Source: Leeuwenhoekiella polynyae (lineage in GTDB: Bacteria; Bacteroidota; Bacteroidia; Flavobacteriales; Flavobacteriaceae). Taken from it: a stretch of 43,463 nt of DNA. The position numbers were made by a program, and so were the translations under genes. Each line of letters starts with the position of its first letter. The stretch's first letter is position 1. Under the pieces are notes generated by a model. It did no database searches. It was given only the letters and a program-made list of their open reading frames with translations, and was not told the origin of the DNA. The stretch is taken from positions 1 through 43,463 of the forward strand of contig NZ_QOVK01000030.1 of the NCBI RefSeq assembly GCF_004104075.1, written 5' to 3'. Of the stretch, positions 11,442 to 36,094 are shown piece by piece.

Positions 11442-11449
11442 TATCTTTG
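11442..11449 (+). promoter_or_regulatory. -7 promoter box, rlmB-like gene (leaderless arrangement)
   Basis: TATCTTTG matches the Bacteroidota consensus TAnnTTTG. It ends 4 nt before the ATG at 11454, so transcription should start at or next to the start codon. Confidence 0.65.
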
Positions 11450-11453
11450 CCGT

Positions 11454-12188
11454 ATGTCAAAAAGCACTCACATTTACGGTACACGGGCGATTATAGAAGC
11501 GATAAATGCCGGTAAAGAAATAGGTAAAATATATCTTCAAAAAGGATTGAATAACCCGCTTTCTAAAGAGTTGGAAGGTTTAATCCGCGAACACGGAATT
11601 TCAGTTTCTTACGTTCCTCAGGAAAAATTATATAAATTATCAGATCAGAACCATCAGGGAGCGATTGCTACAATCTCCCCTATTCGCTTTGCTGAATTTG
11701 AAGCTACTGCTGAAGCTATTTTGGCAGCAGATAAGCCGGCACTGTTTTTATTATTAGACCAACTGACCGATGTTCGAAATTTTGGCGCAATTATCCGTAC
11801 AGCAGTTTGCACAGGTGTTGATGCTATAATCGTACCCAAATCTGGGGGAGCACCAGTAACTGACGATACGGTTAAGACTTCAGCCGGAGCTATTTTCAAT
11901 ATCCCCATTTGTAAAGTAGATCATATTAAAGATGCACTTTTTTACTTACAGGGATCAGGAGTTCAGGTTGTGGCTGCAACAGAAAAAACTGAAAGCTCAG
12001 TTTACGATTTAGACTACACGACTCCCACTGCTTTAGTTATGGGTAGCGAAGGAAAAGGTGTAACTGCAGGAGTTTTAAAACTCGTAGATCAAAAAGCAAA
12101 ATTACCAATGGTCGGAACAATCAGCTCACTTAATGTTTCAGTTGCTTGCGGTGCTTTTTTATATGAAATTGTAAGACAACGAAGCTAA
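11454..12188 (+). CDS. rlmB: 23S rRNA 2'-O-ribose methyltransferase, TrmH/SpoU family (RlmB-like)
   Basis: 244-residue SPOUT methyltransferase that adds a 2'-O-methyl group to an rRNA (possibly tRNA) ribose using SAM. The N-terminal substrate-binding domain (about 5-75) has the RlmB-type opening IYGTRAIIEAI. The SPOUT knot domain carries motif 1 DVRNFGAIIRTA (106-117), motif 2 LVMGSEGKGV (194-203) and motif 3 SLNVSVACGAFLYE (225-238). I chose ATG 11454: the upstream in-frame ATG at 11406 would place translation inside the preceding terminator, and a -7 box sits just before 11454. Its stop overlaps the stop of the convergent rhomboid gene by 4 nt. RlmB against related TrmH-type enzymes cannot be fully settled by eye. 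Confidence 0.85.
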   Translation: MSKSTHIYGTRAIIEAINAGKEIGKIYLQKGLNNPLSKELEGLIREHGISVSYVPQEKLYKLSDQNHQGAIATISPIRFAEFEATAEAILAADKPALFLLLDQLTDVRNFGAIIRTAVCTGVDAIIVPKSGGAPVTDDTVKTSAGAIFNIPICKVDHIKDALFYLQGSGVQVVAATEKTESSVYDLDYTTPTALVMGSEGKGVTAGVLKLVDQKAKLPMVGTISSLNVSVACGAFLYEIVRQRS

Positions 12189-12898
12189 ACAATTGAATCG
12201 TCTTCCGAATCTTCATCAGATTCTTCTGGCGGATCTATAAAATTTCCGTGTTCGTCAAATTGTCGCAAAAAAGGATCATTTTCAGGATTATAAGCTTCGG
12301 TTTCCCAATGATATTTAACGGGTTTTGGTATTTTATTTTTAATCACAAAAGCCAGTAAAAGTCCACCCAGAAAACCAGACAAATGTCCTTCCCAGCTCAT
12401 ACCTTCCTGAATAGGCATCGTTCCCCAAATAAGACTTCCGTAGAGAAAAACAACAATTAGCGAGAAGGCCGTAAGCCTATAATGTTTAGACCAGATTCCT
12501 TTAAAAAATAAAAAGGAAGCCAAACCATAAATTACACCGCTTGCTCCTATGTGATAAGCCTGTCTGCCAAATAACCACGTTCCCAAACCTGAAATAAGTA
12601 TCAAAATAAGTAATACGCGCCAAGCCACAGGTCTGTAGAAGTAAAAAAGGCCACCCATTAGAACTAAAGTAGGAACGCTGTTATGCCACAAATGACTCAA
12701 ACCAGAGTGAATAAATGGTGAAAAAATAATACCCCGTAGGCCAGAAAGCGTTCTGGGCAAAACACCAAAATCTGTAAAATTGTATCCAAAACGAAGTTCA
12801 AACCAAAAGACCAGCCACATGAACAGCACAATTAATACGGGATACAAAACCACACCTGTACTAAATTGAAAACCTGTTTTTTGATCGTTCACACACAT
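12185..12898 (-). CDS. Rhomboid family intramembrane serine protease
   Basis: 237-residue polytopic membrane protein with the rhomboid catalytic dyad: Ser120 in the GASG motif (HIGASGVIYG) and His172 in WEGHLSGFLGG. Rhomboids cleave transmembrane segments of membrane proteins within the bilayer. About six hydrophobic helices lie between 15 and 187. A hydrophilic acidic tail (about 200-237, rich in Asp and Glu) is probably cytoplasmic. HSGLSHLWHNSV at 64-75 matches the conserved HxxxxHxxxN region of helix 2. The natural substrate is unknown. It is divergent from rarA and overlaps the convergent methyltransferase by 4 nt at the stop codons. Confidence 0.9.
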   Translation of the reverse strand: MCVNDQKTGFQFSTGVVLYPVLIVLFMWLVFWFELRFGYNFTDFGVLPRTLSGLRGIIFSPFIHSGLSHLWHNSVPTLVLMGGLFYFYRPVAWRVLLILILISGLGTWLFGRQAYHIGASGVIYGLASFLFFKGIWSKHYRLTAFSLIVVFLYGSLIWGTMPIQEGMSWEGHLSGFLGGLLLAFVIKNKIPKPVKYHWETEAYNPENDPFLRQFDEHGNFIDPPEESDEDSEDDSIV

Positions 12899-13045
12899 AA
12901 TGATTTCTAATATGCAATTGTTTAACCAAAAATCGAAAACAGGAAATACTGGCAGTAATTTGCGCCATTAACTACCAGTTATTAATAATGCCGAAACATT
13001 TCTCAATTTTAAGTTGAGTTTTTGAGTTAATCACCGCTAAATAAA

Positions 13046-13053
13046 TAATTTTG
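13046..13053 (+). promoter_or_regulatory. -7 promoter box of rarA (leaderless arrangement)
   Basis: TAATTTTG matches TAnnTTTG and ends 4 nt before the rarA ATG at 13058. A TTTG at 13021-13024, 21 nt upstream, could be the -33 element. Confidence 0.65.
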
Positions 13054-13057
13054 AAGA

Positions 13058-14335
13058 ATGAATGCACCACTAGCAGAACGTTTACGTCCTAAAACTCTAG
13101 ACGACTATCTAAGTCAAGAACATCTTGTGGGTGATAAAGGCTCACTCACTTCTTCAATAAAATCAGGTATTATTCCTTCATTGATCTTATGGGGCCCTCC
13201 GGGAGTTGGTAAAACTACTCTAGCTTCTATTATAGCCGAAGAATCAAAGCGTCCTTTTTATATTTTAAGCGCTATAAACAGTGGTGTTAAAGATGTGCGT
13301 GAAGTTATTGATAAAGCAAAAAATGCCGGTGGATTATTCACTCAGAAAAACCCATTACTATTTATAGACGAGATCCACCGCTTTAGCAAATCGCAACAAG
13401 ATTCGCTACTTGCAGCGGTAGAAAAAGGCTGGGTGACGTTAATAGGTGCAACTACCGAAAACCCCAGTTTTGAAGTAATTCCTGCTCTCTTGTCGCGTTG
13501 TCAGGTTTATGTGCTCAATCCGTTTTCTGCAGATGACCTGAGAGCGCTTTTAAAACGTGCAATGACTCAAGATGCAATTCTTGCTAAAAAAGAAATAATA
13601 CTCGAGGAGACTGAAGCGCTGCTGCGCATAAGTGGCGGTGACGCACGTAAACTGCTTAATATTTTTGAATTGCTTGTTACTACCACAAATTCTGAAAAAG
13701 TAGTTATTACCAACGAAATGGTTCAGCAAAAGGTGCAACAAAACACGGTGATGTATGACAAAACCGGCGAGCAACACTATGATATTATTTCAGCATTTAT
13801 AAAATCAATTAGAGGTAGCGATCCCAATGCAGCGGTTTACTATCTAGCCCGAATGATTGAAGGCGGAGAAGATCTCAAATTTATCGCAAGACGCTTGATC
13901 ATTCTCGCTTCAGAAGATATTGGCAATGCCAACCCAACCGCTTTAATTATGGCTACAAATGCTTTTACCGCAGTAACAACTATAGGCTACCCAGAATCTA
14001 GAATTATATTGAGTCAATGCGTGACCTATTTAGCAACCTCAGCAAAAAGCAACGCTTCGTATATGGCGATTAACAAAGCTCAGCAATTGGTAAAACAAAC
14101 CGGAGATCTACCTGTGCCGCTTGCTTTACGTAACGCCCCTACAAAGTTGATGAAAGAATTGGGATATGGAGATGAGTATAAATACTCTCACGATGGTACG
14201 GGAAATTTTATTTACCAGGAATTTCTACCCGAGGAGATTAAAAATCAAAAGCTCTATGAACCGGGAAACAATACACGAGAAGACGGCATTCGCAAGTTTC
14301 TTAAAAATCGCTGGGGAGATAAATACAACTACTAA
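13058..14335 (+). CDS. rarA: Replication-associated recombination protein A (AAA+ ATPase)
   Basis: 425-residue RarA/MgsA (WRNIP1-type) clamp-loader-like AAA+ ATPase that acts at stalled replication forks. Walker [10 protein letters not shown] at 46-54 and Walker [11 protein letters not shown] at 100-109 are intact. Sensor I is ATTENPSFE, the arginine-finger region is ALLSRCQVY, and sensor II is in GGDARKLLN. The C-terminal MgsA tetramerisation domain contains [18 protein letters not shown] and [15 protein letters not shown]. Length matches the family. It is monocistronic: a -7 box lies just before it and a hairpin terminator downstream. Confidence 0.95.
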
Positions 14336-14460
14336 GTCTTAGATTGATTCTTTTAACTCCAGTAAACTACCTCGAAGCAAGCTCAAGAGGCACTCATTAT
14401 AAAAAAATCCTCAATTTCATGACAAACCTCGGGATAATAGACCCTTTAGCGGTGCCAATA
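14336..14460. other. Short intergenic spacer between rarA and the next convergent gene
   Basis: 125 nt with no convincing coding or RNA signal. A 252-nt frame starting at 14344 without ATG runs through the terminator and into the antisense of the next gene, so I do not call it. The terminator at 14461-14495 follows. Confidence 0.5.
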
Positions 14461-14495
14461 AAAAACTCCACCCTAAGTTTAGGATGGAGTTTTTT
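14461..14495. terminator. Bidirectional terminator between rarA and the 14514-15401 gene
   Basis: Stem AAAAACTCCA (14461-14470) pairs with TGGAGTTTTT (14485-14494). After one mismatch an inner stem CCTA/TAGG follows. T-runs exist on both strands, so it can serve both convergent genes. Confidence 0.85.
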
Positions 14496-14513
14496 ATTGG
14501 TAAATATTCTTAT

Positions 14514-15401
14514 TTACTTTTTAGTGAAAATCATTTTCACCAATCCGGAAACTCCTTTTATTTCACGTTCTACAGTAAACTCTGTACCATTATAATAACC
14601 AACTCCCGTGAATTCTGAAGTGCTTACTAAATAAGAGCCTGCTGAAGTTTTTACAGCGGTCCCTATTTTAGAACTCCCTTCGTAAACATCAAATCCAGAA
14701 GTTGTGGCTTTCATACTAAATGAACCATCTTCACTAGTTAAAACAGTTGAAATATCTTCTTCTATTACAGATTCATTTGTACTGGGAGCAGTAGTAGTTT
14801 CTGCATCAATCGCTGTGCTCACTTCTTCTTTTATTTCTTTACCTGTATTCTTAACAACGGCAGTCACAGCAACGACCTTAGACTCCTGCTTTTTTCTTAT
14901 TTCCGGCACCAATTCTGCGGCCTCATCTTCATCTTCTTCAATGAGCTCAGCACGGTCTACTATCTCATCAGAATATGTATAACCATATTCTTCTTCAAGC
15001 TCTTCAAACGCATCTCTAAATGCATCCTGATGACCTGCCTTAAACTCCTTTATTTTACTTTTCCCTTCCGGTAAAACAAAGACTTCTTTACCTCTGCAAT
15101 TCACTAAAGAAATCAAGGCTTTAATACTTAAAAACCCACTAACGGTAGCTCTAGCGTATAATGTATTACAACCATTCTCATTTAAATCTGCAGGCAACTC
15201 TTCGTTTTCCATATATGCATCAAAACCATATTTTATAAATAGAAAACGGGTTAGTGCATTTACATCATATTCACCAGCTTCATCTTGAAACTCAAATTTC
15301 TGAGGAACAACGATGTATTTATAATCTCCTAATTCTTGAGCCGAAAGGCTTACAACTCCTAATAGTAATGCCACGGCTAGTATTAAATTCTTTTTCATCA
15401 T
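14514..15401 (-). CDS. Secreted protein of unknown function
   Basis: 295-residue exported protein I cannot assign to a named family. Signal peptide at 1-21 (MMKKNLILAVALLLGVVSLSAQ). Residues about 25-130 form a compact domain starting DYKYIVVPQKFEFQ and containing two cysteines (NGCNTLY, VNCRGKE) and FVLPEGKSKIKEFKAGHQDAFRDAF. A low-complexity acidic and Thr/Ser-rich linker (about 140-225) leads to a C-terminal beta-rich segment with GSFSMKATTSGFDVYEGSSKIG and VSGLVKMIFTKK. The plan suggests a periplasmic or outer-membrane-associated factor. It is apparently monocistronic, with a terminator immediately downstream. Tandem ATGs at 15399 and 15396 are both possible starts. Confidence 0.8.
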   Translation of the reverse strand: MMKKNLILAVALLLGVVSLSAQELGDYKYIVVPQKFEFQDEAGEYDVNALTRFLFIKYGFDAYMENEELPADLNENGCNTLYARATVSGFLSIKALISLVNCRGKEVFVLPEGKSKIKEFKAGHQDAFRDAFEELEEEYGYTYSDEIVDRAELIEEDEDEAAELVPEIRKKQESKVVAVTAVVKNTGKEIKEEVSTAIDAETTTAPSTNESVIEEDISTVLTSEDGSFSMKATTSGFDVYEGSSKIGTAVKTSAGSYLVSTSEFTGVGYYNGTEFTVEREIKGVSGLVKMIFTKK

Positions 15402-15456
15402 GTTTTATAATCTATTAGTCTAACGAACTAAATCTTGTTTTGTTATCGTTCTCAAT

Positions 15457-16149
15457 TTACAAAAATAAGCGAACAGACTTGATATCATCTACTGCAATTT
15501 CATCAACGTGTAAATCTGCTTTGTGATAATTAAAACAGATTGTCTGCATTCCAATATTTTGTGCCCCTACAATATCTGCCTCATAAGTATCACCCACCAT
15601 TATACTTTCAGTCACAGTTGCAGCTGCAGCATTTAAAGCATGGTGAAAAATTTTAGAGTCTGGTTTCTTAACACCAGCAGCTTCGCTACTAGTCATCGTC
15701 TTAAAGAAGTGGCCTATTTTTGAATTCTGAAGCTTTAAGGTTTGAACCTCCTCAAAACCATTGGTTATAATATGCAAATGATACTTCTCGTTGAGTTCTT
15801 CAAGTAGCTCCATAGCACCATCAAAAAGATGGTTATGTTTTGGCAGATAGTCTATATAATCTACAGAAAGTCTATCTATCAGAAAATCATCAATATTTAT
15901 CTGTAAAGCATCAAAAGACTTCTTTAACCTCCCATAACGTAATTGTTCTTTGGTTACGCGAGCTTCTCTATAATATTTCCAATATTCAAAATTAATAGGA
16001 ACGTAAACCTTCAAAAAATCTTCAACACTCACACTGATGTTGTTCTTCTTAAATATATCCTGAAACGCCAATTCTGAATTGCGATCAAAATCCCAAAGGG
16101 TATGATCCAGATCAAAAAAAACGTGCTTAATACCTTTAAATTTAGTCAT
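15457..16149 (-). CDS. yjjG: YjjG family noncanonical pyrimidine nucleotidase (HAD superfamily)
   Basis: 230-residue HAD-IA phosphatase. YjjG enzymes dephosphorylate noncanonical nucleoside monophosphates and help to clean the nucleotide pool. Motif I FFDLDHTLWD (11-20) gives nucleophile Asp13 and acid Asp15. Motif II is the ITNGF segment, motif III Lys is in GVKKPDSKIF, and motif IV is VGDTYEADIVGA. The helical cap lies between motifs I and II. The start codon overlaps the stop of the upstream polysaccharide-deacetylase-like gene by 8 nt, so the two are translationally coupled. The exact substrate is inferred from subfamily resemblance, especially the TLWDFDRNS sequence. Confidence 0.87.
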   Translation of the reverse strand: MTKFKGIKHVFFDLDHTLWDFDRNSELAFQDIFKKNNISVSVEDFLKVYVPINFEYWKYYREARVTKEQLRYGRLKKSFDALQINIDDFLIDRLSVDYIDYLPKHNHLFDGAMELLEELNEKYHLHIITNGFEEVQTLKLQNSKIGHFFKTMTSSEAAGVKKPDSKIFHHALNAAAATVTESIMVGDTYEADIVGAQNIGMQTICFNYHKADLHVDEIAVDDIKSVRLFL

Positions 16150-17446
16150 TGACTAATTCTCTAAAAAATTGTTTCCACTGGCCTTCATCCTGACCTTTAC
16201 CAGTGACTGATTTATTTTTAAAACTGAACACAAAATTACCTTTTACCCGCTCAACTTCTTCTTTCATTTTAAAGAAAATATCTAGTTCATGATTCAATTC
16301 TTTAACATCTACTCTTCGGGATTCAAAAGCACTTGCTTGTGCACAAATAGGATGAACAACTAATGGAGTTATACTCTCATAATCAAGATCATAAAAGTTA
16401 AAAGGTGTGCAAGTACCGGCTCTAAAACCCAAAACATCAGGGTAACCCATTGAATAATCATTCTTGGCTTCCTGCTGAATCATCTCACGGTAATGCATAG
16501 GCAAACTCCCCATATGCGCACTGCAACGTACAGCATTGAGTTCTTTATTAGTAATACCTTCGATTCGTTTCTTTTCTAGCTTCATTTGTTTTTTACCAGA
16601 CAAAGCTTCTTTAGAAAGTAACAAGCCAATCTCACTGTAATCGCCCACCATTTTTATGAGCTCTCTGAAAGTTTTTTTATTGTATCTGATGTTCTTGGTA
16701 TAGGTAGAATAGTTACCTACCATAAAGAAGAAGACAAACTTAAATTTGGCATTTTTCTGAACATTTATCAACCAACTAAAGGTATCGTACGGATCTTTTC
16801 GCAGACCAATATTTACCCTAAAGCGTAACCAAATACGTTGAAACTGAAAATGTACCAAGTCACTTAAAAAACTGGTTAACCAGCGCATTATTCCTATGCC
16901 ATACATTTCATAAGCTTGCTCAACATCAACCAATGCCTGAAAAGAAAATTTCCGCTTCGCAAAATCATAATCAGGATATTTTTCCTCTAGAACTTCTTTA
17001 AAATAACAAGCCCAGATATCAATAACAGGCTGTGTTAAAAACTCGTTCTGAAACCCTAAACTTTCTCCTGCAGGAAACCTCCCTTGCTCGTCTTTTACGT
17101 GTGGTAAAAACTCCTCATACCTACTTAAAAGAACAAAAGCTGCTGCAAAAATATCATAAGGTAAGAAACTCTTAGTACCAGTAACAAAGAAGCATTTTGT
17201 ATCACGCCACTCTTGCACTTTGACTTCCATATCTGTTATTCCCTGCTCAAAGAGCACCTCTTGACTTTTTATATATAATTCTTTACCAAGCGGCTTATTA
17301 GTATAAGAAAGCTTAAGACTGTCATGCACGATAAACTCATCTACCGCAGTCGTAAACTTGACAGGAATCCCTAAAATATTTGTACAAATATGCTTAAACG
17401 TATAACGTAAGCGCGGGGTTACTTTATGAGTATAAATTAGGAGCAT
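16142..17446 (-). CDS. Polysaccharide-deacetylase-like protein
   Basis: 434-residue protein resembling the flavobacterial polysaccharide-deacetylase family proteins with an N-terminal uncharacterised domain (about 1-140, MLLIYTHKVTPRLRYTFKHI) and a C-terminal NodB-like barrel. In the barrel half I see FSFQALVDVEQAYEMYG, where deacetylases bear their metal-binding aspartates, then FFFMVGNYS, EIGLL, RCSAHMGSLPMHYREMI and GYPDVLGFRAGTCTPFNFYD. The classical HxxxH zinc motif is not intact, so catalysis is uncertain. There is no signal peptide. It is the first gene of a two-gene operon with the YjjG-type nucleotidase. A surface-glycan role is plausible but inferred. Confidence 0.7.
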   Translation of the reverse strand: MLLIYTHKVTPRLRYTFKHICTNILGIPVKFTTAVDEFIVHDSLKLSYTNKPLGKELYIKSQEVLFEQGITDMEVKVQEWRDTKCFFVTGTKSFLPYDIFAAAFVLLSRYEEFLPHVKDEQGRFPAGESLGFQNEFLTQPVIDIWACYFKEVLEEKYPDYDFAKRKFSFQALVDVEQAYEMYGIGIMRWLTSFLSDLVHFQFQRIWLRFRVNIGLRKDPYDTFSWLINVQKNAKFKFVFFFMVGNYSTYTKNIRYNKKTFRELIKMVGDYSEIGLLLSKEALSGKKQMKLEKKRIEGITNKELNAVRCSAHMGSLPMHYREMIQQEAKNDYSMGYPDVLGFRAGTCTPFNFYDLDYESITPLVVHPICAQASAFESRRVDVKELNHELDIFFKMKEEVERVKGNFVFSFKNKSVTGKGQDEGQWKQFFRELVND

Positions 17447-17576
17447 CTACAAATTCTTAATGGCAAGTTCTGCAATTTTCCAGTAAAGTCGAAAGAATTA
17501 CAGTTAATTAGATTGAAGCAAGATTCTAAGGATTTAAAGCCCAAAGATTTTATTCTTACTCCAAGCACTGAAGATT

Positions 17577-18275
17577 TTAAAGCAAACCTTCATCGGCAAA
17601 GCTAAAATACGCATTTTCGGTAATGATTAGATGGTCTAGCACTTTTATATCAAGACTTGCTGCTGCGGTTTTGAGTTTTACCGTGATATCTTTATCAGCC
17701 TGACTGGGACGTAAACTACCAGAAGGGTGATTATGTGCTAAAATTATAGATACCGCACCCGTCTCAAGAGCTTTGCGCAATACCAATCTCACATCAACTA
17801 AGGTGCCGGTCATTCCGCCTTTGCTAAGCTGGTGCATCGTCATCACTTTATTAGAGTTGTTAAGATATAAAATCCAAAATTCTTCGTGACCGAGTTCCCC
17901 CAGTATTGGGTTCAAAAGCTCATACACTGCATTACTGCCAGTGATTTTCTTAACGTCTTCGGTTCTCTCTGCTCGACGTCTGCGACCCAGTTCCATCGCT
18001 GCAGCAATCGTTATGGCTTTTGCTTCACCTACACCTTTAAATTCCATTAACTGAGATATACTCAACTTCCCTAAAGCCGTCAAGTTGTGTTCTGCGGAAG
18101 CTAAAATGCGTTTACTTAAACTCACCGCACTTTCATTGCGACTTCCTGAACCTATCAAAATCGCAATGAGCTCTGCATCGGTTAAAGTGTCTTTACCTTT
18201 TTGTAGTAATTTTTCTCTGGGTCGGTCATCTAAAGACCAATTTTTAATTGAAAAATGTTCGGTTTTATGCTCCAT
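17577..18275 (-). CDS. radC: RadC family protein (JAB/MPN domain)
   Basis: 232-residue RadC-like protein. An N-terminal helix-hairpin-helix region (LMEFKGVGEAKAITIAAAMELGRR, about 76-99) precedes an MPN/JAB metalloprotease-like domain with the motif HNHPSGSLRPSQAD: His181, His183 and Asp194 are candidate zinc ligands, and the upstream Glu is at 131 or 132 (GHEEFW). Despite the historical name, a direct DNA-repair role is unproven. Length and order are standard for chromosomal radC. It lies alone, divergent from the DUF1569-like gene, with 130 nt of unannotated sequence downstream. Confidence 0.92.
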   Translation of the reverse strand: MEHKTEHFSIKNWSLDDRPREKLLQKGKDTLTDAELIAILIGSGSRNESAVSLSKRILASAEHNLTALGKLSISQLMEFKGVGEAKAITIAAAMELGRRRRAERTEDVKKITGSNAVYELLNPILGELGHEEFWILYLNNSNKVMTMHQLSKGGMTGTLVDVRLVLRKALETGAVSIILAHNHPSGSLRPSQADKDITVKLKTAAASLDIKVLDHLIITENAYFSFADEGLL

Positions 18276-18410
18276 AAATATGAGTTGGGTTTAAGATCTC
18301 ATCAAAAGACCTTAATGATTGTATTTAATTAAACAGCTGTAAAGTAGCGTATTGAATTCTAAAGTTAAAAAAATGTACCTTTAAATCACATCTTTAAACT
18401 TTTAAAAAAC

Positions 18411-18854
18411 ATGAAAAGTCTTTTTGAATCAGACACTTACAACGCTATTCTAGAACGACTGGCTAATCTTTCTCCTGAAAGTACTGCCCAATGGGGAAAA
18501 ATGAATGTAGGGCAAATGCTCAATCATTGTCAAAAACCTTTGGAAATTGCTATTTATAATAAGGATTTTGGACTCAAATCTAATTTCCTAATTCGTTCTT
18601 TTTTCAAAAAGCCTATGTATGATGATAGTACATTCCGAAAAAATATGCCAACCCCAAAAAGATTTAAAGTATCTGAATTTAAAGATTTTTCTACTGAAAA
18701 AGAACGTTTAAAATCGCTTATCGAGTCATTCTACAGCCTGAAAAATAAAAAAGATTGGACACCGCATCCGGTTTTTGGAAACTTCACTCCAGAGCAATGG
18801 GGTAAAATGCAATACAAACATCTGGATCATCACTTTAGACAATTCGGAGTATGA
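18411..18854 (+). CDS. DUF1569 / DinB-like protein
   Basis: 147-residue small protein resembling the DUF1569 branch of the DinB/YfiT-like four-helix-bundle superfamily. Visible landmarks are WGKMNVGQMLNHCQKP (His at 34), HPVFGNFTPEQWGKM and the terminal HLDHHFRQFGV. The spaced histidines match the metal-binding positions of DinB-like proteins. The biochemical role is unknown; related proteins bind a divalent metal and some act as thiol-dependent transferases. The start is an ATG; upstream TACCTTTA (18376-18383) is one base off the -7 consensus. Its stop overlaps the start of the PaiB-like gene in ATGA, so the two are translationally coupled. Confidence 0.75.
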   Translation: MKSLFESDTYNAILERLANLSPESTAQWGKMNVGQMLNHCQKPLEIAIYNKDFGLKSNFLIRSFFKKPMYDDSTFRKNMPTPKRFKVSEFKDFSTEKERLKSLIESFYSLKNKKDWTPHPVFGNFTPEQWGKMQYKHLDHHFRQFGV

Positions 18855-20826: not shown

Positions 20827-20903
20827 AGTCTGTAATTGCTGTTAAAATAGAAAACGCAAGTTAAGAAATCAACGGCATCAAAAGCGACCGAAATATAAGT
20901 ATT

Positions 20904-21863: not shown

Positions 21864-21879
21864 ATCTGGTTGTTTGAGT

Positions 21880-26132: not shown

Positions 26133-26138
26133 AAAACA

Positions 26139-26618: not shown

Positions 26619-26622
26619 AAAA

Positions 26623-26641: not shown

Positions 26642-26826
26642 AGTATAGAAATGTCAAGGTAAATTAAAGTATTTATTAACCATTCTAAATATTATTAATC
26701 AAACCCATCTACAAATCTATTCCAGTTTTTTCGTGTATTAAATTTAAACGAAATTAAGTATAATACTCGACAAAGACATCACAACTCTAGCTTAAATGCT
26801 TATTCTTTAAAAAACACTATACGAAA

Positions 26827-28860: not shown

Positions 28861-28863
28861 TGA

Positions 28864-29166
28864 ATGGCACAGCGTCTTAATTGTAATAGCAATTTAAACT
28901 CAATAAGTATTTACAAAAGCTTTCTGAGTTACAAAGGCTACTCCAATATTGAATGTAAAAGCTGTGGTTCGTTAATAGTTCACAGTGCGAAAAACAGATT
29001 ATATGGCGGTTTAATTGTTGGAACATCAATATTAATGTCTTTTCTATATTTTGGTTCTAAAAATCCAAGCGTAGAGAATGTATTAATAGGGATTGGCATA
29101 GCAGCTATTATATTTTTATTGGGCTCCTTACTCATAACTCCGCTTTTGCAATTTGAAAACAAATAA
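28864..29166 (+). CDS. Small membrane protein with CxxC motif
   Basis: 100-residue protein of no family I recognise. The N-terminus has NIECKSCGSLIVHS, a single CxxC knuckle (plus a separate NCNSN), possibly half of a zinc ribbon. Two hydrophobic segments follow (about 47-65 and 74-95, LIVGTSILMSFLYFG and VLIGIGIAAIIFLLGSLLI). It starts 3 nt after the M3 peptidase stop, so is probably cotranscribed, and ends in a bidirectional terminator whose stem includes its last stop base. Coding is supported by the tight spacing and the coherent two-TM topology. Confidence 0.65.
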   Translation: MAQRLNCNSNLNSISIYKSFLSYKGYSNIECKSCGSLIVHSAKNRLYGGLIVGTSILMSFLYFGSKNPSVENVLIGIGIAAIIFLLGSLLITPLLQFENK

Positions 29167-29206
29167 AATAAGCCTTCTAGAAGTTATACTTTTAGAAGGC
29201 TTATTT
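29166..29206. terminator. Bidirectional terminator shared by two convergent genes
   Basis: A 14-bp perfect stem, AAATAAGCCTTCTA (29166-29179) with TAGAAGGCTTATTT (29193-29206), loop 13 nt, with T-rich flanks on both strands. It includes the last stop base of the upstream plus gene and the stop codon of the minus-strand glycosyltransferase. Confidence 0.85.
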
Positions 29207-30427
29207 ATTCTTCTCCTCAATCCATTTACTCATAAACTTTGAAGCTTGTAGCGATTGATGCCAAAGCATTGCCCCTGTAAAATTTGCTTGACGATGCTGT
29301 TCTAAATTTTTCAGAAGCTCATTTATTTTTGAATGAAATAGGGGTTGCCAATAACTTTGTAGAAAACGCTCATTTATAATTTTAACTCCATTTTTTTGTG
29401 CTTTTGACCAAGCTTTGGAGTCTTTATAAAGGCTGACTGCAGCATCTGCAAAATCATTAAAATCATCAGTTACGCTTCCGTTAAAAGGCAATGTGCCGTG
29501 CATGCCTTCAGCACCAACTTTTGTAGTTACAGCAGGAGTACCACACTGCATCGCATCTAGCAATTTTCCTTTTAAACCGGCTCCTGTAAGTAATGGGGCA
29601 AGTAAAACACGTGCATCTTCAATAACCTCGTGTGCACTTTCGGCTCTGCCTAAGACATAGAAATTTTCTTTAGGATTGTGTAGCTGGGTGTGTTTTTCTG
29701 CGGGGTATGAACCGTAAACACGCATTTCTGCATCAGGTAACTGTTTACGAATTATGGGCCAGATTTCGGTTTTTAAATACCGTACTGAAAGCCAATTGGG
29801 TTCGTGTCTAAAATTACCAATGGTCACAAAATGCTTTCGTTTCTCAAAAGGCTTCCAAATAGAAATCACCTCATCAGAAATAGGTTCCACCAGAAAAGGC
29901 AAATAAAACAATTGTTGATCAGGAACATTAAAAAAATCGTTCAATACTTCCATCTCAAATTCTGAAATAACCAGGGTCAAATCACAGCGATATATACTCG
30001 CCAATTCGCGCTTTGCAAAATCGTTATGGAAATACTTTTCAGAAAAAGACTCTCCGGCTTTTAAAGCTGCTTCGCGCCCTTTTCTAAGTCCGTGCAAGTC
30101 TATCGTTTCTAAAATCCGTACCGCATCTGGACACTGCTCTTTTACACGCCAGCCAAATTGTTCTTCAATAACAAACTTGTCAAAAACAACCACCTGGGGA
30201 TTTAAATCTTTAATGTAAGTATCAAAACTGCTGTTATTAAGTTGGATGATCTCTTCTGCCACATTAATTTTTGATAAGTCTTCAGACAATGGTGTTTTAC
30301 CGGCTGCGCAGGCAAAATGCACTTCAGCGCTCTTATTCTGAAACGCTTTGATCAATTGCATAATACGGGTTCCTGCAGCAGAAGAAACCGGCTCTGGCCA
30401 TACATTACCTAAGAAGAGTACTTTCAT
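29201..30427 (-). CDS. Glycosyltransferase family 4-like protein
   Basis: 408-residue GT-B fold glycosyltransferase. The N-terminal domain opens MKVLFLGNVWPEPVSSAAGTRIMQLI, with an SAAG acceptor-side loop. The C-terminal nucleotide-sugar domain has KRKHFVTIGNFRHEPN, DAEMRVYGSYP, NFYVLGRAES and the GT4-type donor motif LLTGAGLKGKLLDAMQCGTPAVTT. Acceptor and sugar are not predictable; no glycan cluster surrounds it. Its promoter box TATATTTG (30432-30439) ends 4 nt before the ATG, and it diverges from the GbsR-like regulator across an 83-nt region containing an operator-like palindrome, so it may belong to that regulon. Confidence 0.85.
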   Translation of the reverse strand: MKVLFLGNVWPEPVSSAAGTRIMQLIKAFQNKSAEVHFACAAGKTPLSEDLSKINVAEEIIQLNNSSFDTYIKDLNPQVVVFDKFVIEEQFGWRVKEQCPDAVRILETIDLHGLRKGREAALKAGESFSEKYFHNDFAKRELASIYRCDLTLVISEFEMEVLNDFFNVPDQQLFYLPFLVEPISDEVISIWKPFEKRKHFVTIGNFRHEPNWLSVRYLKTEIWPIIRKQLPDAEMRVYGSYPAEKHTQLHNPKENFYVLGRAESAHEVIEDARVLLAPLLTGAGLKGKLLDAMQCGTPAVTTKVGAEGMHGTLPFNGSVTDDFNDFADAAVSLYKDSKAWSKAQKNGVKIINERFLQSYWQPLFHSKINELLKNLEQHRQANFTGAMLWHQSLQASKFMSKWIEEKNK

Positions 30428-30431
30428 AACG

Positions 30432-30439
30432 CAAATATA
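30432..30439 (-). promoter_or_regulatory. -7 promoter box of the GT4 gene (leaderless arrangement)
   Basis: On the minus strand this reads TATATTTG, an exact consensus match. The 4 nt CGTT separate it from the ATG at 30427, so the mRNA is predicted to be leaderless. Confidence 0.65.
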
Positions 30440-30464
30440 GTTTTACCGCAGCAATAAAAATAAG

Positions 30465-30482
30465 TTTCAATAAATATTGAAA
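30465..30482. promoter_or_regulatory. Operator-like inverted repeat, copy 1 (GbsR-type regulator)
   Basis: TTTCAATAAATATTGAAA: 8-bp arms TTTCAATA / TATTGAAA around AA. It lies between two divergent promoters and covers the TTG at 30477-30479, which sits 19 nt upstream of the regulator's -7 box, so binding would block RNA polymerase. A related copy is at 31033-31050. Assignment to the adjacent regulator is inferred. Confidence 0.65.
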
Positions 30483-30498
30483 TTTTAAAAATAAATAC

Positions 30499-30506
30499 TA
30501 TATTTG
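30499..30506 (+). promoter_or_regulatory. -7 promoter box of the gbsR-like gene (leaderless arrangement)
   Basis: TATATTTG, an exact consensus match, with TTG at 30477-30479 as -33 element (19-nt spacer). AAAC separates it from the ATG at 30511. Confidence 0.7.
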
Positions 30507-30510
30507 AAAC

Positions 30511-31014
30511 ATGGAATTCAAGGAAGCAAAAGATCAATTTTTACAAACCTGGGGAGCATTAGGTTCTCAGTGGGGCATTAATAAAACGATGGCTCAGATT
30601 CACGCGCTATTGATGATCTCTCCAGATTCGCTTTCTATGGAAGAAGTGATGGAAGAACTGCAAATCTCCCGCGGAAATGCAAGTATGAACCTTCGAGGTT
30701 TGATTGATTGGGGAATTGTTTATAAAGAGTATAAGCCCGGTGAACGCAAAGAATATTTTAAAGCAGATCAAGATGTTGACTCGCTGGCACGTAAAATTGC
30801 CATCGAACGCAGTAAGCGAGAAATCAAACCTGCATTGCGTGTACTCGCAGATGTTAAAAACTTTAACGACAACCCAAGTAATGAAGCTCAAAAGTTTAAA
30901 ATGAAGACCGAAGAGCTTTATGAATTTGTGAGTAAGGCAGATACGATGCTTGGTAAAATAGTAAACCAAAAAGAAAACTGGATTACTAAAACTATCATGA
31001 AACTGATGAGTTAA
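30511..31014 (+). CDS. GbsR/MarR-family transcriptional regulator
   Basis: 167-residue winged-helix regulator of the GbsR branch of the MarR-like family. The helix-turn-helix and wing span about 40-85 (SMEEVMEELQISRGNASMNLRGLIDWGIVYKEYKPGERKEYFKA). C-terminal helices (about 90-165) probably dimerise. GbsR homologues control osmoprotectant genes in Bacillus, but no such genes are here. The operator-like palindrome in its promoter suggests autoregulation, and a second copy follows the gene, before the membrane-protein genes. The first ATG lies 4 nt after the -7 box, so it is probably translated from a leaderless mRNA. Confidence 0.85.
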   Translation: MEFKEAKDQFLQTWGALGSQWGINKTMAQIHALLMISPDSLSMEEVMEELQISRGNASMNLRGLIDWGIVYKEYKPGERKEYFKADQDVDSLARKIAIERSKREIKPALRVLADVKNFNDNPSNEAQKFKMKTEELYEFVSKADTMLGKIVNQKENWITKTIMKLMS

Positions 31015-31032
31015 TATTTTTTTAAATAATAA

Positions 31033-31050
31033 TTTCAATATTTTCTGAAA
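31033..31050. promoter_or_regulatory. Operator-like inverted repeat, copy 2
   Basis: TTTCAATATTTTCTGAAA, an imperfect dyad matching copy 1 in outer arms. With the following TTTAAAAATAA, 25 of 30 positions agree with the block at 30465-30494. It lies in the 52-nt gap between the regulator and the first membrane-protein gene. No TAnnTTTG box follows this copy. Confidence 0.6.
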
Positions 31051-31066
31051 CTTTAAAAATAACGAG

Positions 31067-31414
31067 ATGAATTATAACCTTCTTTCTTATAGTATTTATA
31101 TAATTCTGATGGTGATTATTATCTACAGCATCGGCAAGGTATGCTACACAAACGGCAAAGCTTTTATTTTAAATGCAATCCAAGACGAAGAACTTACTAT
31201 CAGAACCAACAAATCACTTTTAGCAGGTTACTATTTAGTGAATATTGGGTTTGTAATATATACAGTACAGGGATGGCCAGAAATTGTGAGTTCTCTAGAG
31301 ATAATAAATAAGATAAGCACATACGTAGGCTCTTTATTAATCGCACTCGCGTTACTTCATTTTTTCAACATTTATTTTATAACCCACCTACTCAAAAAAA
31401 TTATTAATCATTAA
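31067..31414 (+). CDS. Small three-TM membrane protein, paralogue of the next gene
   Basis: 115-residue predicted inner-membrane protein of no named family. Hydrophobic helices at about 7-27, 51-68 and 86-105. It aligns with the following gene along its length: NGKAFILNAIQ-DEEL-TNKS-GYYLVNIGF here against NGRLFMIDIFKGKEE-TNKL-GFYLLNIGF there, plus a shared FFNI near the C-terminus. The NG-x-x-F loop and TNK-x6-YL-x-NIGF are thus the conserved features. It lies downstream of the GbsR-like regulator in an apparent operon. Confidence 0.7.
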   Translation: MNYNLLSYSIYIILMVIIIYSIGKVCYTNGKAFILNAIQDEELTIRTNKSLLAGYYLVNIGFVIYTVQGWPEIVSSLEIINKISTYVGSLLIALALLHFFNIYFITHLLKKIINH

Positions 31415-31425
31415 TTCAATTACTT

Positions 31426-31806
31426 ATGGAAACTTCAAAAATTCTAGTCGGCTATTTTATCTACTTACCCATCACCATTGCATTAACGCTTTTCGTATCA
31501 AACATACTTTTCAAAAACGGCAGGTTGTTTATGATAGATATCTTTAAAGGGAAGGAAGAAATTGCTTTAGCTACAAATAAGCTATTTAAAGTAGGATTCT
31601 ATCTTTTAAACATTGGTTTTGCTCTTTTAATTATGGAGATTCACGACTATGGCTTCGATGACACCTATCAAAATCTAGCCGAAGTTTTAAGTTCTAAAAT
31701 TGGTGGATTTACGATCTATTTAGGCTTAATGCTATTCTTCAATATATTTTTATTCTTTAGAGGAAGAAAAAAATCAAGACAAACTTTGAAAACTCAACAG
31801 TTATGA
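31426..31806 (+). CDS. Small three-TM membrane protein, tandem paralogue
   Basis: 126-residue predicted inner-membrane protein, a tandem duplicate of the upstream gene (11-nt gap). Hydrophobic helices at about 8-28, 55-71 and 93-112. Conserved block: NGRLFMIDIFKGKEEIALATNK followed by VGFYLLNIGFALLI. A basic tail (RGRKKSRQTLK) is likely cytoplasmic. Its stop overlaps the next start as ATGA, indicating translational coupling. Function unknown; a heteromeric membrane complex with its paralogue is a reasonable guess. Confidence 0.7.
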   Translation: METSKILVGYFIYLPITIALTLFVSNILFKNGRLFMIDIFKGKEEIALATNKLFKVGFYLLNIGFALLIMEIHDYGFDDTYQNLAEVLSSKIGGFTIYLGLMLFFNIFLFFRGRKKSRQTLKTQQL

Positions 31807-32243
31807 AACTCCAAGAGAAAGCTGTAAAAGGAGGAGTTTTATTGGCAACATTTGGTATCATATCGTTTTTAGCTATTATGCATTTCTTTTTTGATTCTTT
31901 CAAATATGCATTTAACAATGATATTATAAACTTCTTTTTGATTGCCTGTATAATTAATTACACTGTAAGTATTTGTGTAAGCAACTGGTGCTTAAAAGCT
32001 ATTTCAAATGGAAGAAATTCAAAGTTAATGGGCTTAGTTTTTACATTGTTGTCGTTAATTATATTTTCTATGCTCTTCAACATTCCTTATTTTATATATG
32101 AATGCATTACTAATACCAAATACATTACTGATCACTTAACCATTCTATGGGTCTCTCCCATATATTGTTTTATTATGGGTTTTATTCCCGCCGTTATAAT
32201 CGGGGTACCATACGGACTTTATCTTGATGACGATTTGTTGTAA
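31803..32243 (+). CDS. Four-TM membrane protein in the GbsR-like operon
   Basis: 146-residue predicted inner-membrane protein, not recognised as a known family and not obviously homologous to the two before it. Hydrophobic segments at about 11-30, 41-62, 77-98 and 115-139 (VSPIYCFIMGFIPAVIIGVPYGLYL), ending in acidic LDDDLL. It overlaps the upstream gene by 4 nt, and a strong terminator follows, marking the end of the regulator-membrane protein operon. Confidence 0.65.
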   Translation: MKLQEKAVKGGVLLATFGIISFLAIMHFFFDSFKYAFNNDIINFFLIACIINYTVSICVSNWCLKAISNGRNSKLMGLVFTLLSLIIFSMLFNIPYFIYECITNTKYITDHLTILWVSPIYCFIMGFIPAVIIGVPYGLYLDDDLL

Positions 32244-32246
32244 AAC

Positions 32247-32274
32247 AAAAACCCCCGCAAATGCGGGGGTTTTA
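32247..32274. terminator. Bidirectional terminator between membrane-protein operon and gcvP
   Basis: A GC-rich hairpin AAAACCCCCGC / GCGGGGGTTTT around AAAT (stem arms about 32248-32258 and 32263-32273), flanked by A-rich and T-rich runs. It can serve both convergent units. Confidence 0.9.
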
Positions 32275-32293
32275 ACATTATTATCATAATAAA

Positions 32294-35143
32294 TTATGCT
32301 TCCATATATTCTTCTATAGGAGCACAGGTACAAATTAAATTACGATCTCCATATGCATCATCAACACGACGTACCGCAGGCCAGAATTTATTGTCTGCAA
32401 CGTATTCTAAAGGATAAGCTGCTTGCTGACGGGTATACGGGAATTCCCAGGTTTCTGCAGTAAGCATATGTAATGTATGTGGTGCATTTTTAAGCACGTT
32501 ATTTTCATCATCTGCAGTTGCTGAATCAATCTCTTTTCTGATGCTAATCATCGCATCACAAAAGCGATCTAATTCTTGCTTGCTTTCACTTTCTGTAGGT
32601 TCAATCATCATTGTGCCAGCAACAGGAAAAGAAACTGTAGGTGAATGAAAACCGTAGTCAATTAAACGCTTGGCGATATCAACCACTTCGATCCCATTTT
32701 CTTTAAACGGACGACAATCTATGATCATCTCGTGAGCGGCACGACCTTTTTCACCAGAATACAATACCTCAAATGCTCCTTTTAAACGCTCTTTAATATA
32801 GTTTGCGTTCAAAATTGCAGCTTCTGTAGATTCTTTTAAGCCAGCTGCTCCAAGCATTTTTATATATGCATAACTAATTAAACAAACCAAAGAAGAACCC
32901 CAAGGCGCAGCAGAAATTGCAGAAATTGCCTGTTCTCCTCCTGTTTTAATTACAGGGTTTGTTGGTAAGAAAGGCTCCAACTGTTCTGCCACACAAATAG
33001 GACCTACACCAGGACCACCTCCTCCGTGAGGGATAGCAAAGGTCTTATGAAGATTAAGGTGACAAACATCTGCACCAATCTTTCCAGGATTGGTCAAACC
33101 TACCTGAGCATTCATATTAGCACCGTCCATATAAACCTGACCGCCGTTATCGTGTATGATTCCGGTGATTTCTTGAATAGCACTTTCATAAACTCCGTGA
33201 GTTGATGGATAGGTTACCATCAATGCTGCTAGATTGTCTTTATGCTTTTCGGCTTTTTCACGCAAATCATCTACGTCAATATTACCTGTATCTGTTGCTT
33301 TAGTTACTACTACCTGCATACCCGCCATTACAGCACTTGCAGGATTGGTTCCGTGTGCAGAAGAAGGAATCAAGCAAATGTTACGATGTGCCTCTCCTCT
33401 ATTTTCGTGATATGCCTTGATCACCATCAAACCGGCATATTCACCTTGAGCACCCGAGTTAGGCTGCAAAGATGTGCCTGCAAAACCGGTGATCTCAGTA
33501 AGTTGGTCTTCTAACTTCTTCAATACTTCCTGATAACCGCCTGCCTGCTCCACCGGTACAAATGGGTGAATTCCTCCCCAGCGTACATCGCTTAACGGAA
33601 GCATTTCTGCAGCAGCATTCAATTTCATCGTACAAGATCCTAATGAGATCATACTGTGATTAAGCGATAAATCTTTACGCTCTAAACGCTTGATGTAACG
33701 CATCAATTCAGTTTCTGAATGGTAGCTGTTAAAAACCGGATTGGTCATAAATTCCGTTTTACGACTTAAAGCTTCCGGGATTGCTATATTTCCAGCTAAA
33801 CCTTCTAAGTGGGTAAACTCTTTACCTAAAGCTTCCGCAAAAACAGCAATAATTTTATTCAGATCAGCTAGACTGGTGGTTTCATTTATTGAAACCGAAA
33901 CCGTACCTGCATCCGGATAATAGAAATTAATTTCGTTAGCTTCTGCGAACTTGCGTACATTTTCTGCATCTGTCTTCACTCTAATGGTATCAAAGTAGGC
34001 AGAGTTCAACTGATATAGACCTATGTTTTCTAAAGCATCTGCTAGCGTCGCTGCTGTTCTGTGAATTTTTGTAGCAATATATTCTAGCCCCTTAGGACCG
34101 TGATATACGGTGTACATACCGGCCATAACTGCTAATAAAACCTGTGCAGTACAAATATTTGAAGTTGCTTTATCTCTCTTAATATGCTGTTCACGGGTTT
34201 GAAGCGCCATACGCAAAGCACGGTCTCCATTACGGTCTTTGGTCACTCCAATAATCCTACCCGGAATGTTTCTTTTAAATTCTTCACGCGTTGCAAAGTA
34301 AGCTGCGTGTGGCCCACCATATCCTAGCGGTATACCAAAACGTTGCGTAGTACCTACAACAACATCTGCTCCTAAATGACCCGGAGCTTCCAGTAAGACC
34401 AAACTCATAATATCTGCAGCAACAGCTACTTTGATATCTGCTTCTTTTGCTTTGGAAATAAAACCTGCATAATCGTGTATCTCTCCTGAAGCTGAAGGGT
34501 ATTGCAATAAAGCACCAAAAAAGTCAGAACCAAATTCAAATTCTTGCGGGTTACCTATAACTAACTCTACACCTACAGGAAGTGCTCTGGTCTCTAACAC
34601 AGAAAGGGTTTGTGGTAAAACTTCTTTATCTACAAAAAACTTAACTACATCATTCTTCTTCTGAACCCGGCTGCGTACTGCTGCAATCAAAGTCATTGCT
34701 TCTGCAGCTGCTGTAGACTCATCTAATAAAGATGCGTTTGCCAGCTCCATACCGGTTAGGTCGCTTATCATCGTCTGAAAATTCAATAATGCCTCAAGAC
34801 GCCCTTGAGCAATCTCTGCCTGATATGGAGTGTAAGCGGTATACCAACCCGGATTTTCTAAAATATTACGTTGAATTACCGCAGGAATTTTTGCCTCGTG
34901 ATACCCTAAACCTATATAGGTTTTGAACAGTTTATTTTTGTTTGCTAGCGCATTTATATGCGTGGCATACTCATACTCACTTAATGCAGGCTCAAGATTC
35001 AATGCCTTTTTTAACCTAATTCCGTCAGGAAGTGTTTCATAGATTAATTGGTCTATTGTATCAACGCCCAAAGCTTTCAGCATTACATCCTTTTCCTCTG
35101 GTCTTGGCCCTATATGCCTTAAAGCAAAAACATCTGTTCTCAT
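32294..35143 (-). CDS. gcvP: Glycine dehydrogenase (decarboxylating), P-protein
   Basis: 949-residue full-length P-protein of the glycine cleavage system: decarboxylates glycine with PLP and passes the aminomethyl group to GcvH lipoate. Both halves of the single-chain form are present: MRTDVFALRHIGPRPEE at the start, YTPYQAEIAQGRLEALLNFQTM, then SLGSCTMKLNAAAEMLP and the PLP-lysine Lys700 in HLNLHKTFAIPHGGGGPG. I chose ATG 35143; the longer frame from a TTG at 35149 adds only two residues. GcvT and GcvH are not in the window. The promoter region holds a TAATTTTG box (35173-35180) and a perfect 18-bp palindrome upstream. Confidence 0.96.
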   Translation of the reverse strand: MRTDVFALRHIGPRPEEKDVMLKALGVDTIDQLIYETLPDGIRLKKALNLEPALSEYEYATHINALANKNKLFKTYIGLGYHEAKIPAVIQRNILENPGWYTAYTPYQAEIAQGRLEALLNFQTMISDLTGMELANASLLDESTAAAEAMTLIAAVRSRVQKKNDVVKFFVDKEVLPQTLSVLETRALPVGVELVIGNPQEFEFGSDFFGALLQYPSASGEIHDYAGFISKAKEADIKVAVAADIMSLVLLEAPGHLGADVVVGTTQRFGIPLGYGGPHAAYFATREEFKRNIPGRIIGVTKDRNGDRALRMALQTREQHIKRDKATSNICTAQVLLAVMAGMYTVYHGPKGLEYIATKIHRTAATLADALENIGLYQLNSAYFDTIRVKTDAENVRKFAEANEINFYYPDAGTVSVSINETTSLADLNKIIAVFAEALGKEFTHLEGLAGNIAIPEALSRKTEFMTNPVFNSYHSETELMRYIKRLERKDLSLNHSMISLGSCTMKLNAAAEMLPLSDVRWGGIHPFVPVEQAGGYQEVLKKLEDQLTEITGFAGTSLQPNSGAQGEYAGLMVIKAYHENRGEAHRNICLIPSSAHGTNPASAVMAGMQVVVTKATDTGNIDVDDLREKAEKHKDNLAALMVTYPSTHGVYESAIQEITGIIHDNGGQVYMDGANMNAQVGLTNPGKIGADVCHLNLHKTFAIPHGGGGPGVGPICVAEQLEPFLPTNPVIKTGGEQAISAISAAPWGSSLVCLISYAYIKMLGAAGLKESTEAAILNANYIKERLKGAFEVLYSGEKGRAAHEMIIDCRPFKENGIEVVDIAKRLIDYGFHSPTVSFPVAGTMMIEPTESESKQELDRFCDAMISIRKEIDSATADDENNVLKNAPHTLHMLTAETWEFPYTRQQAAYPLEYVADNKFWPAVRRVDDAYGDRNLICTCAPIEEYMEA

Positions 35144-35172
35144 ATACAAATTATCTGTGTTTAGAATGGCGC

Positions 35173-35180
35173 AAAATTAC
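35173..35180 (-). promoter_or_regulatory. -7 promoter box of gcvP
   Basis: Minus-strand TAATTTTG, an exact TAnnTTTG match, leaving a leader of about 24 nt. No glycine-riboswitch fold fits in such a short leader. Confidence 0.55.
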
Positions 35181-35197
35181 AATATCAGTTAGGAATA

Positions 35198-35215
35198 TAA
35201 TCACATGTGATTATG
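35198..35215. promoter_or_regulatory. Perfect 18-bp palindrome between gcvP and UbiA-like promoters
   Basis: ATAATCACATGTGATTAT, two-fold symmetric without mismatch. Its near edge is 17 nt from the gcvP -7 box, so it overlies the gcvP -33 region, and it ends 39 nt before the -7 box of the divergent gene. It is a strong operator candidate for an unknown regulator, probably acting on gcvP. Confidence 0.65.
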
Positions 35216-35254
35216 AGTTTTTCAACCACTTAAAGCACTTATCAACACATAACC

Positions 35255-35262
35255 TATATTTG
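35255..35262 (+). promoter_or_regulatory. -7 promoter box of the UbiA-like gene (leaderless arrangement)
   Basis: TATATTTG, an exact consensus match, followed by CTAA and then the ATG at 35267. The same 4-nt spacing occurs at four other genes in this window. Confidence 0.65.
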
Positions 35263-35266
35263 CTAA

Positions 35267-36094
35267 ATGAAAGGCCTTAAAAGCATTTTTGATTTTTATA
35301 TCAACAGTAGTATTCACGTGGCTTTGTCTGTTGTCTGCCTCTCGTTTATCAGTCAAGAAGAATTGAATCTTCTACACGAGCAAACCTTTGACTGGTTCAT
35401 TTTTTTTGGGACAATAACCGGTTATAATTTTGTAAAGTATGCTGCGCTTGCAGGTTTGCATCACCGCAACCTAACAGAGCGCTTAAAAAGCATTCAGGTT
35501 TTCTCTGTTTTTTGTTTTATAGCGATGATTTATTTTGGAATTCAGTTTGAATTTCAATTTTGGATTTTTTGCGTACCGCTGGCACTTTTAACTCTACTCT
35601 ATGCATTGCCTTTTTTACCGCATAAGAAGAATTTACGGATGGTGCCTTCGCTTAAGATTTTTATAATTGCAGCAGTATGGGCGGGAGTGAGTGTATATTT
35701 ACCGGTAGTTTATGATTTTACAGACTGGTCAACAGATGCGACATTATTAACTGCTCAACGGTTTTTACTCGTTTTGTCGTTAATAATTCCGTTTGAGATA
35801 CGTGATTTTAATTATGATGCCTCAAGTTTAGGGACGCTTCCGCAAAAATTAGGCATAAAAAAAACCAAACTATTTGGCCTTTTGATGGTTACAGGATGTG
35901 TAATCTTAGAAATTTTTAGAGAAAGTTGGTTTAGCTCTGCCAGCATTCTTCACTTTATAATGTTAGCGTTAACAGCTTTCGCTATACTAAAAGCTAAAAC
36001 CGTTCAACCTTCATATTATTCGTCTTTTTTTGTAGAAGGAATTCCTATTTTATGGTTTCTGCTCAGTTTTGTTTTTAGCGAGTTCGCGTTCTAA
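35267..36094 (+). CDS. UbiA-prenyltransferase-like membrane protein
   Basis: 275-residue polytopic protein (about seven hydrophobic segments) that I read as a divergent member of the UbiA superfamily. The second Asp motif region is recognisable: FEIRDFNYDASSLGTLPQKLG (Asp180, Asp184), matching the UbiA pattern RDxxxDxxxGxxTLPxxLG. The segment MVPSLKIFIIAAVWAGVSVYLP resembles the mid-protein PxLKxxxxAxxWxxxxxxLP of the family. The first motif NDxxDxxxD is degenerate, GYNFVKYAALAG, with Asn54 but no aspartates. Catalysis is therefore uncertain. The 3' end overlaps the convergent anti-sigma-like gene by 45 nt. It diverges from gcvP. Confidence 0.65.
   Translation: MKGLKSIFDFYINSSIHVALSVVCLSFISQEELNLLHEQTFDWFIFFGTITGYNFVKYAALAGLHHRNLTERLKSIQVFSVFCFIAMIYFGIQFEFQFWIFCVPLALLTLLYALPFLPHKKNLRMVPSLKIFIIAAVWAGVSVYLPVVYDFTDWSTDATLLTAQRFLLVLSLIIPFEIRDFNYDASSLGTLPQKLGIKKTKLFGLLMVTGCVILEIFRESWFSSASILHFIMLALTAFAILKAKTVQPSYYSSFFVEGIPILWFLLSFVFSEFAF

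Follow-up and report, generated by a model that had tools for sequence, protein, structure and literature searches.

Why do five genes in one contig of Leeuwenhoekiella polynyae (Flavobacteriaceae) carry the same promoter box at exactly the same distance from their start codons? The stretch in question, hereafter the window, is the 43,463-nt contig NZ_QOVK01000030.1, one contig of a 4.79-Mb genome assembled in 47 contigs, and the box is TAnnTTTG, placed 4 nt before the start codons of rlmB, rarA, a GT4-type glycosyltransferase gene (GT4), a GbsR-like regulator gene and a UbiA-like gene. An earlier reading of the sequence (the original prediction) took these genes to be transcribed into leaderless mRNAs, and all five box strings with their 4-nt spacers were found where it had placed them (Table 1). 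I consider it very probable that the five boxes are sigma-A -7 elements, that the mRNAs are leaderless and that the layout has been selected across genera. The prediction is well supported by a peak in box spacing at gene starts, by conservation of the spacing in other genera and by the published distance of 4-5 nt between box and transcription start site.

Box spacing at gene starts

Box-to-start distances were counted in a genome sample of 60 stretches of 20 kb with 897 called genes, of which the 697 preceded by 12 nt or more of intergenic DNA were kept and the remainder dropped. The distribution was not flat and had the sharp peak at 4 nt that the original prediction implied: TAnnTTTG stood at exactly 4 nt before 10 of the 697 starts, whereas the other spacings from 0 to 15 nt averaged 1.07 (P ~2e-7; counts from 0 to 15 nt: 0, 1, 1, 1, 10, 2, 2, 3, 1, 0, 0, 0, 2, 0, 2, 1). 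These 10 include a gene with a GTG start and exclude one ATG gene with a 2-nt overlap with its neighbour, and the start codons found at exactly 4 nt in the sample are 10 ATG and 1 GTG. Four permuted motifs gave no case at 4 nt, while the near-variant TAnnTTTA gave 7. Among all patterns of the form XXnnXXXX, TAnnTTTG was the most over-represented at 4 nt (10 found, 0.91 expected), and it was also top-ranked at 17, 18 and 23 nt, distances at which it is predicted to work as a leadered promoter. Boxes with no G in the middle two positions (TAHHTTTG) account for 5/5 of the window cases and 8/10 of the sample boxes at 4 nt.

The sample also bears out the view that two classes of transcript exist, since box counts stay at background for 8-15 nt and climb from 16 nt, with 55 boxes at 16-25 nt, 28 at 26-40 nt and 39 at 41-80 nt. 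The background level at 8-15 nt may arise because leaders of ~4-11 nt would be poor for translation. The window itself, with 34 called genes, has 15 boxes within 92 nt before a start, 5 at exactly 4 nt, 0 at 5-15 nt and 10 at 16-81 nt; this agrees only in part with the original prediction, which had counted eight further-off boxes, at 9 to 72 nt.

One alternative is chance: AT-rich boxes are many, and five that happened to lie at 4 nt would have been picked out by the earlier reader. Raw counts lend this some colour, as the window contains an ordinary number of boxes (61 against 58 expected), the genome holds fewer TAnnTTTG-N4-ATG matches (88) than matches to the reversed control (122), and the window was picked for its cases. 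The raw pattern count was rejected as a test of the claim, given the higher reversed control and the fact that 35 of 58 examined matches lie off gene starts. At gene starts themselves, in a sample drawn independently of the box, the excess of 10/697 over a mean of 1.07 makes the spacing hard to ascribe to chance in spite of the ordinary raw counts, and with four of the five cases conserved in other genera the probability of this alternative is close to negligible. Genome-wide, 38 of the 88 matches coincide with called starts (window 5/6, sample 10/24, elsewhere 23/58), to which one GTG start at 4 nt from the sample is added. The sixth match in the window, at 38862, is internal to a gene called at 38390-39994 on the minus strand and had correctly been omitted by the original prediction. 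A preference for AUG was found at the 4-nt box, with the qualification that the 38 genome-wide cases come from a pattern requiring ATG; some relatives have a GTG start at 4 nt.

Conservation in relatives

Orthologue searches covered mostly one genome per genus, and orthologue starts were placed without reference to the box. The best 29 loci besides the query's own were compared in most cases (for rlmB the best 29 of 119 genomes, for searches of 60 genomes 29 of 59). The GbsR-like set comprised 12 strong matches, with 14 weak ones (E > 1e-10) left out as probable non-orthologues, and the rarA set comprised 80 loci retained of 465, from named genomes with many Aquimarina and Flavobacterium.

The clearest leaderless case was rbfA, which lies outside the window (L014; G000:C1:520411-520800). 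Among the relatives compared, which for rbfA and the UbiA-like and GbsR-like genes were family members, TAnnTTTG at exactly 4 nt was found before rbfA in 24/29, the UbiA-like gene in 21/29, the GbsR-like gene in 10/12, rlmB in 7/29 and rarA in 16/80; for TAnnTTT[GA] at 4-6 nt the respective figures were 24/29, 25/29, 10/12, 22/29 and 67/80. The background in the same genome is 10/697 for the exact and 27/697 for the relaxed form, and the leadered control MlaE gave 1/29 and 2/29. The spacer, which had been called invariant, is so inside the window; relatives mostly have 4-6 nt, and of 11 congeners 6 have exactly 4 nt at the GbsR-like gene and another four have 3 nt, one of these with TAnnTTTA. 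Most of the flanking sequence has diverged in relatives that retain the spacing. Mean identity before rbfA was 0.78 over the box compared with 0.34 and 0.32 in two upstream blocks of 20 nt, while upstream DNA of the GbsR-like and UbiA-like genes was partly conserved too (0.47-0.55). One two-sequence alignment of the UbiA-like promoter was poorly placed and was not used. Outside the family but within the same class, the rbfA box stood at 4-6 nt in 16/48 genomes and at exactly 4 nt in 6 (48 of 78 searched), and the rlmB box at 4-6 nt in 1/21 loci with a start found (23 loci). Judged from these comparisons, selection seems to maintain the layout at rlmB, rarA, rbfA and the GbsR-like and UbiA-like genes in many genera of the family. 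A candidate set aside here was rlmN, which has a GTG start with a 4-nt box in its own genome: only 6/29 relatives have the box at 4-6 nt and most have it at 6-8 nt, which indicates a very short leader in relatives instead of a strictly leaderless message.

The same orthologues bear on whether the start codons are misplaced, with true starts downstream and mRNAs with ordinary leaders. The starts are indeed predictions, and the peak could reflect an accidental preference of the gene caller for an ATG near a box. The caller, however, uses codon usage only and is blind to the box, and it selects all five window starts given in Table 1; for rlmB, the GbsR-like gene, rbfA and rarA, most orthologue alignments begin at residue 1 or 2. 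A longer rlmB open reading frame is possible from an ATG at 11406, yet the alignment of relatives begins at 11454. Misplaced starts are thus a very unlikely explanation.

Three side observations came from the same comparisons. Upstream of rlmB in several genera (L123, L129, L139, L143, L191, L195), a terminator-like hairpin has a T run that leads directly into the box, such that terminator and promoter nearly overlap in the bases before the gene (hairpins judged by eye). Upstream of MlaE in many relatives (L311-L336), a variant box like TTTACTTTAGCA lies ~15-20 nt before the start, a conserved leadered promoter that fits TAnnTTTG inexactly. Finally, rarA of the flavobacterial type, 78-79% identical to the query, occurred on contigs labelled Bifidobacterium breve and Rhizobium (L083, L107), which are probably mislabelled or contaminated assemblies; RarA of the window shares 98% identity with its counterpart in Leeuwenhoekiella marinoflava and 99% with the one in L. 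aestuarii.

Predicted leaderless transcription and its precedents

If the boxes are ordinary -7 elements of sigma-A (sigma-ABfr), transcription would start at the first base of the start codon or at its neighbour. The position of the start site is taken over from other species: in F. johnsoniae the box extends from -12 to -5 and, at probable promoters, is separated from the start site by 4-5 nt (PMC6847099). A 4-nt spacer combined with this distance would place +1 at the A of the AUG or at the base beside it. Such an mRNA would have no leader, and its 5'-terminal AUG would be recognised directly by ribosome-bound initiator tRNA. Other bacterial leaderless messages with a 5'-terminal AUG are translated by this route, through initiator tRNA on the ribosome. 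Bacteroidota translate largely without Shine-Dalgarno pairing. The five window genes would on this account belong to a leaderless class of ~39 genes in the genome.

The box might instead be a Kozak-like translation element in a longer mRNA that is transcribed from a promoter further upstream. Flavobacteria do modulate translation through the bases directly before the AUG, chiefly through A at -3 (PMC6847099), and A at -3 is common in the 18 genes with a near-start box as well (0.56); its frequency in leadered genes is comparable (0.49), a TTTG at -8 to -5 differs from a Kozak-like context, and the identical box is enriched at 16-25 nt, which is a promoter distance. In several relatives the rlmB box directly follows a terminator-like hairpin and T run (by eye). 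Taken together, these points leave a translation element extremely unlikely.

Several results weigh against the leaderless reading of a selected promoter class. The window is enriched relative to the genome (5/34 genes compared with 10/697) after having been chosen for its cases, and the first 40 stretches of the sample gave 9/458 while the last 20 added only 1/~239, a figure obtained by subtraction with a slightly different edge filter between the two counts; the frequency of 4-nt cases differs along the genome. In four other genera, sampled at 5 x 20 kb each, only 4/262 genes had a box at 4-6 nt, and this sample was discarded as a test of the peak because 262 genes are too few. Only best-matching loci were compared between genera, which favours nearer genera. 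The GT4 box was found in the family in 0/28 at the exact spacing and 1/28 at 4-6 nt, and GT4 was consequently rejected as a family-wide leaderless case; inside the genus it is conserved (10/11 exact, 11/11 at 4-6 nt). The box of a TruA paralogue was retained in only 1/29. Moreover, TTG in the -33 zone was found at 0 of 18 boxes with 3-7 nt spacing as opposed to 23 hits at 84 leadered boxes, and additional promoters may lie further upstream; the -33 element is weak in F. johnsoniae too (PMC6847099).

The predicted leaderless initiation is not a new mode, as the phenomenon is already known in the family. The original prediction had suggested that this lineage has a dedicated mode of leaderless initiation, for which no support was found: sequence past the start is close to that of leadered genes, with A at +4 to +15 at 0.50 for near-start boxes (n=18) versus 0.45 for leadered ones (n=84) and folding energies from +1 to +40 of -2.59 versus -2.17 kcal/mol, and leaderless mRNAs have already been reported in two Flavobacterium species. 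The results gave no sign of special machinery, initiation factors not being part of the comparison. In F. psychrophilum, which shares the family and the box (TAnnTTTG at -12 to -5), 5.5% of 890 coding sequences with mapped start sites are leaderless (PMC9723704); in the parts of that account considered here, the leaderless genes are unnamed and their conservation is unaddressed. For F. johnsoniae, predicted leaders exceed 10 nt in 87%, which leaves a minority with short or absent ones; its authors state that leaderless translation cannot account for the lack of Shine-Dalgarno sequences, and the parts of the paper used here describe no conserved leaderless set (PMC6847099).

Further afield, Bacteroides thetaiotaomicron shares the phylum and the promoter type, and ~3.7% of its 5' untranslated regions are shorter than 10 nt; the genes named for these in the sections used here (transposases, sensor kinases, transporters) differ in kind from the present ones, except for one sensor kinase type (PMC7366714). 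Zheng et al. (2011) likewise read a promoter-like signal ~10-12 nt before the start as a sign of leaderless genes (PMC3160421). Their signals, as far as the parts of the paper used here go, were compared to the E. coli Pribnow box, and Bacteroidetes genes came out mostly as "atypical" (PMC3160421); a TAnnTTTG class would therefore be missed. Literature searches, judged by title and displayed abstract, found no paper on conserved leaderless genes in Bacteroidota. New relative to the literature found are the list of leaderless genes and its conservation, which for rbfA extends into other families of the class. Earlier reports put leaderless messages in Bacteroidota at a small percentage; a named gene set with a layout kept across genera (for rbfA, across families) makes selection on leaderless starts, and their purpose, testable, as well as the response of leaderless versus leadered mRNAs to the state of the ribosome.

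The window and the list of predicted leaderless genes

Table 1. Predicted -7 boxes, their genes and an intervening palindrome in the window.
Feature	Positions	Strand	Remarks
TATCTTTG	11442..11449	+	predicted -7 box of rlmB; 4-nt spacer to ATG
rlmB, 23S rRNA G2251 2'-O-methyltransferase	11454..12188	+	TIGR00186, score over cut-off; A of ATG is predicted +1
TAATTTTG	13046..13053	+	predicted -7 box of rarA
rarA, AAA+ ATPase RarA/MgsA	13058..14335	+	Pfam MgsA_C
TATATTTG	30432..30439	-	predicted -7 box of GT4 gene
group 1 (GT4-type) glycosyltransferase	29201..30427	-	Pfam Glyco_trans_1_4; start at 30427
palindrome TTTCAATAAATATTGAAA	30465..30482	.	between the divergent predicted leaderless promoters of GT4 and GbsR-like genes
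TATATTTG	30499..30506	+	predicted -7 box of GbsR-like gene
GbsR/MarR-like regulator	30511..31014	+	weak family matches: MarR_2 slightly under cut-off, CudC model far under cut-off
TATATTTG	35255..35262	+	predicted -7 box of UbiA-like gene
UbiA-like membrane protein	35267..36094	+	label from the original prediction; 0 families in Pfam and NCBIfam

Sample genes with a 4-nt box include rbfA, thioredoxin, the TruA paralogue, a DUF4230 gene, a histidine kinase, an ABC transporter and a pyrE-like gene. Further starts at 4 nt belong to a SpoU methylase, RlmH, topoisomerase IB, a bioF-like gene, LipB, a UmuD-like peptidase, RuvB, a DinB-type polymerase, an Asp/Glu racemase, DXP synthase, an MVD-like enzyme and a Crp-type regulator; several assignments (TruA, bioF, UmuD) score under the curated NCBIfam cut-offs. 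As an impression only, genes for RNA modification, ribosome maturation and DNA repair look common in the list.

One might go further and propose that leaderlessness is a selected regulatory trait of these genes, letting the cell make their products at the very time when 30S assembly or normal initiation falters. The set would be rich in genes for ribosome maturation and RNA modification (rbfA, rlmB, rlmH, rlmN, the SpoU methylase and the TruA paralogue) and in genes for DNA repair or recombination (rarA, ruvB, the DinB-type polymerase and the UmuD-like protein), and its mRNAs could be loaded by 70S ribosomes or by ribosomes whose maturation is incomplete. Ribosomes of Bacteroidota conceal their anti-Shine-Dalgarno sequence. 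If this were true, rbfA would represent an ancient case, as its layout is also kept by other families of the class, but at present I regard the proposal as rather unlikely.

The UmuD-like and DinB-type polymerase genes share a near-identical promoter module (~26/31 bases by eye; L536:1471-1512 (+) and L540:1504-1545 (-)) of the form TCCGTT..GGAA..ATTCCATA.TTTTG, which has the same box at its end, again with a 4-nt spacer to the ATG, and is a candidate damage-response operator. Within the window, the palindrome TTTCAATAAATATTGAAA is a possible operator for the GbsR-like regulator, perhaps an autoregulatory one, and inverted repeats resembling it precede most of the GbsR-like orthologues displayed (judged by eye). 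The UbiA-like gene has gcvP as its divergent neighbour. A TTATCAACA motif before this gene could be read as a DnaA box and sign of an origin, which was not supported in view of the missing motif cluster and of a GC skew without a clear turn. The promoter of the UbiA-like gene contains, at 35214-35247, two AAC-ending motifs (like GTTTTTAACC and TTATTAACA) ~20 nt apart, and this pair was seen again before many orthologues.

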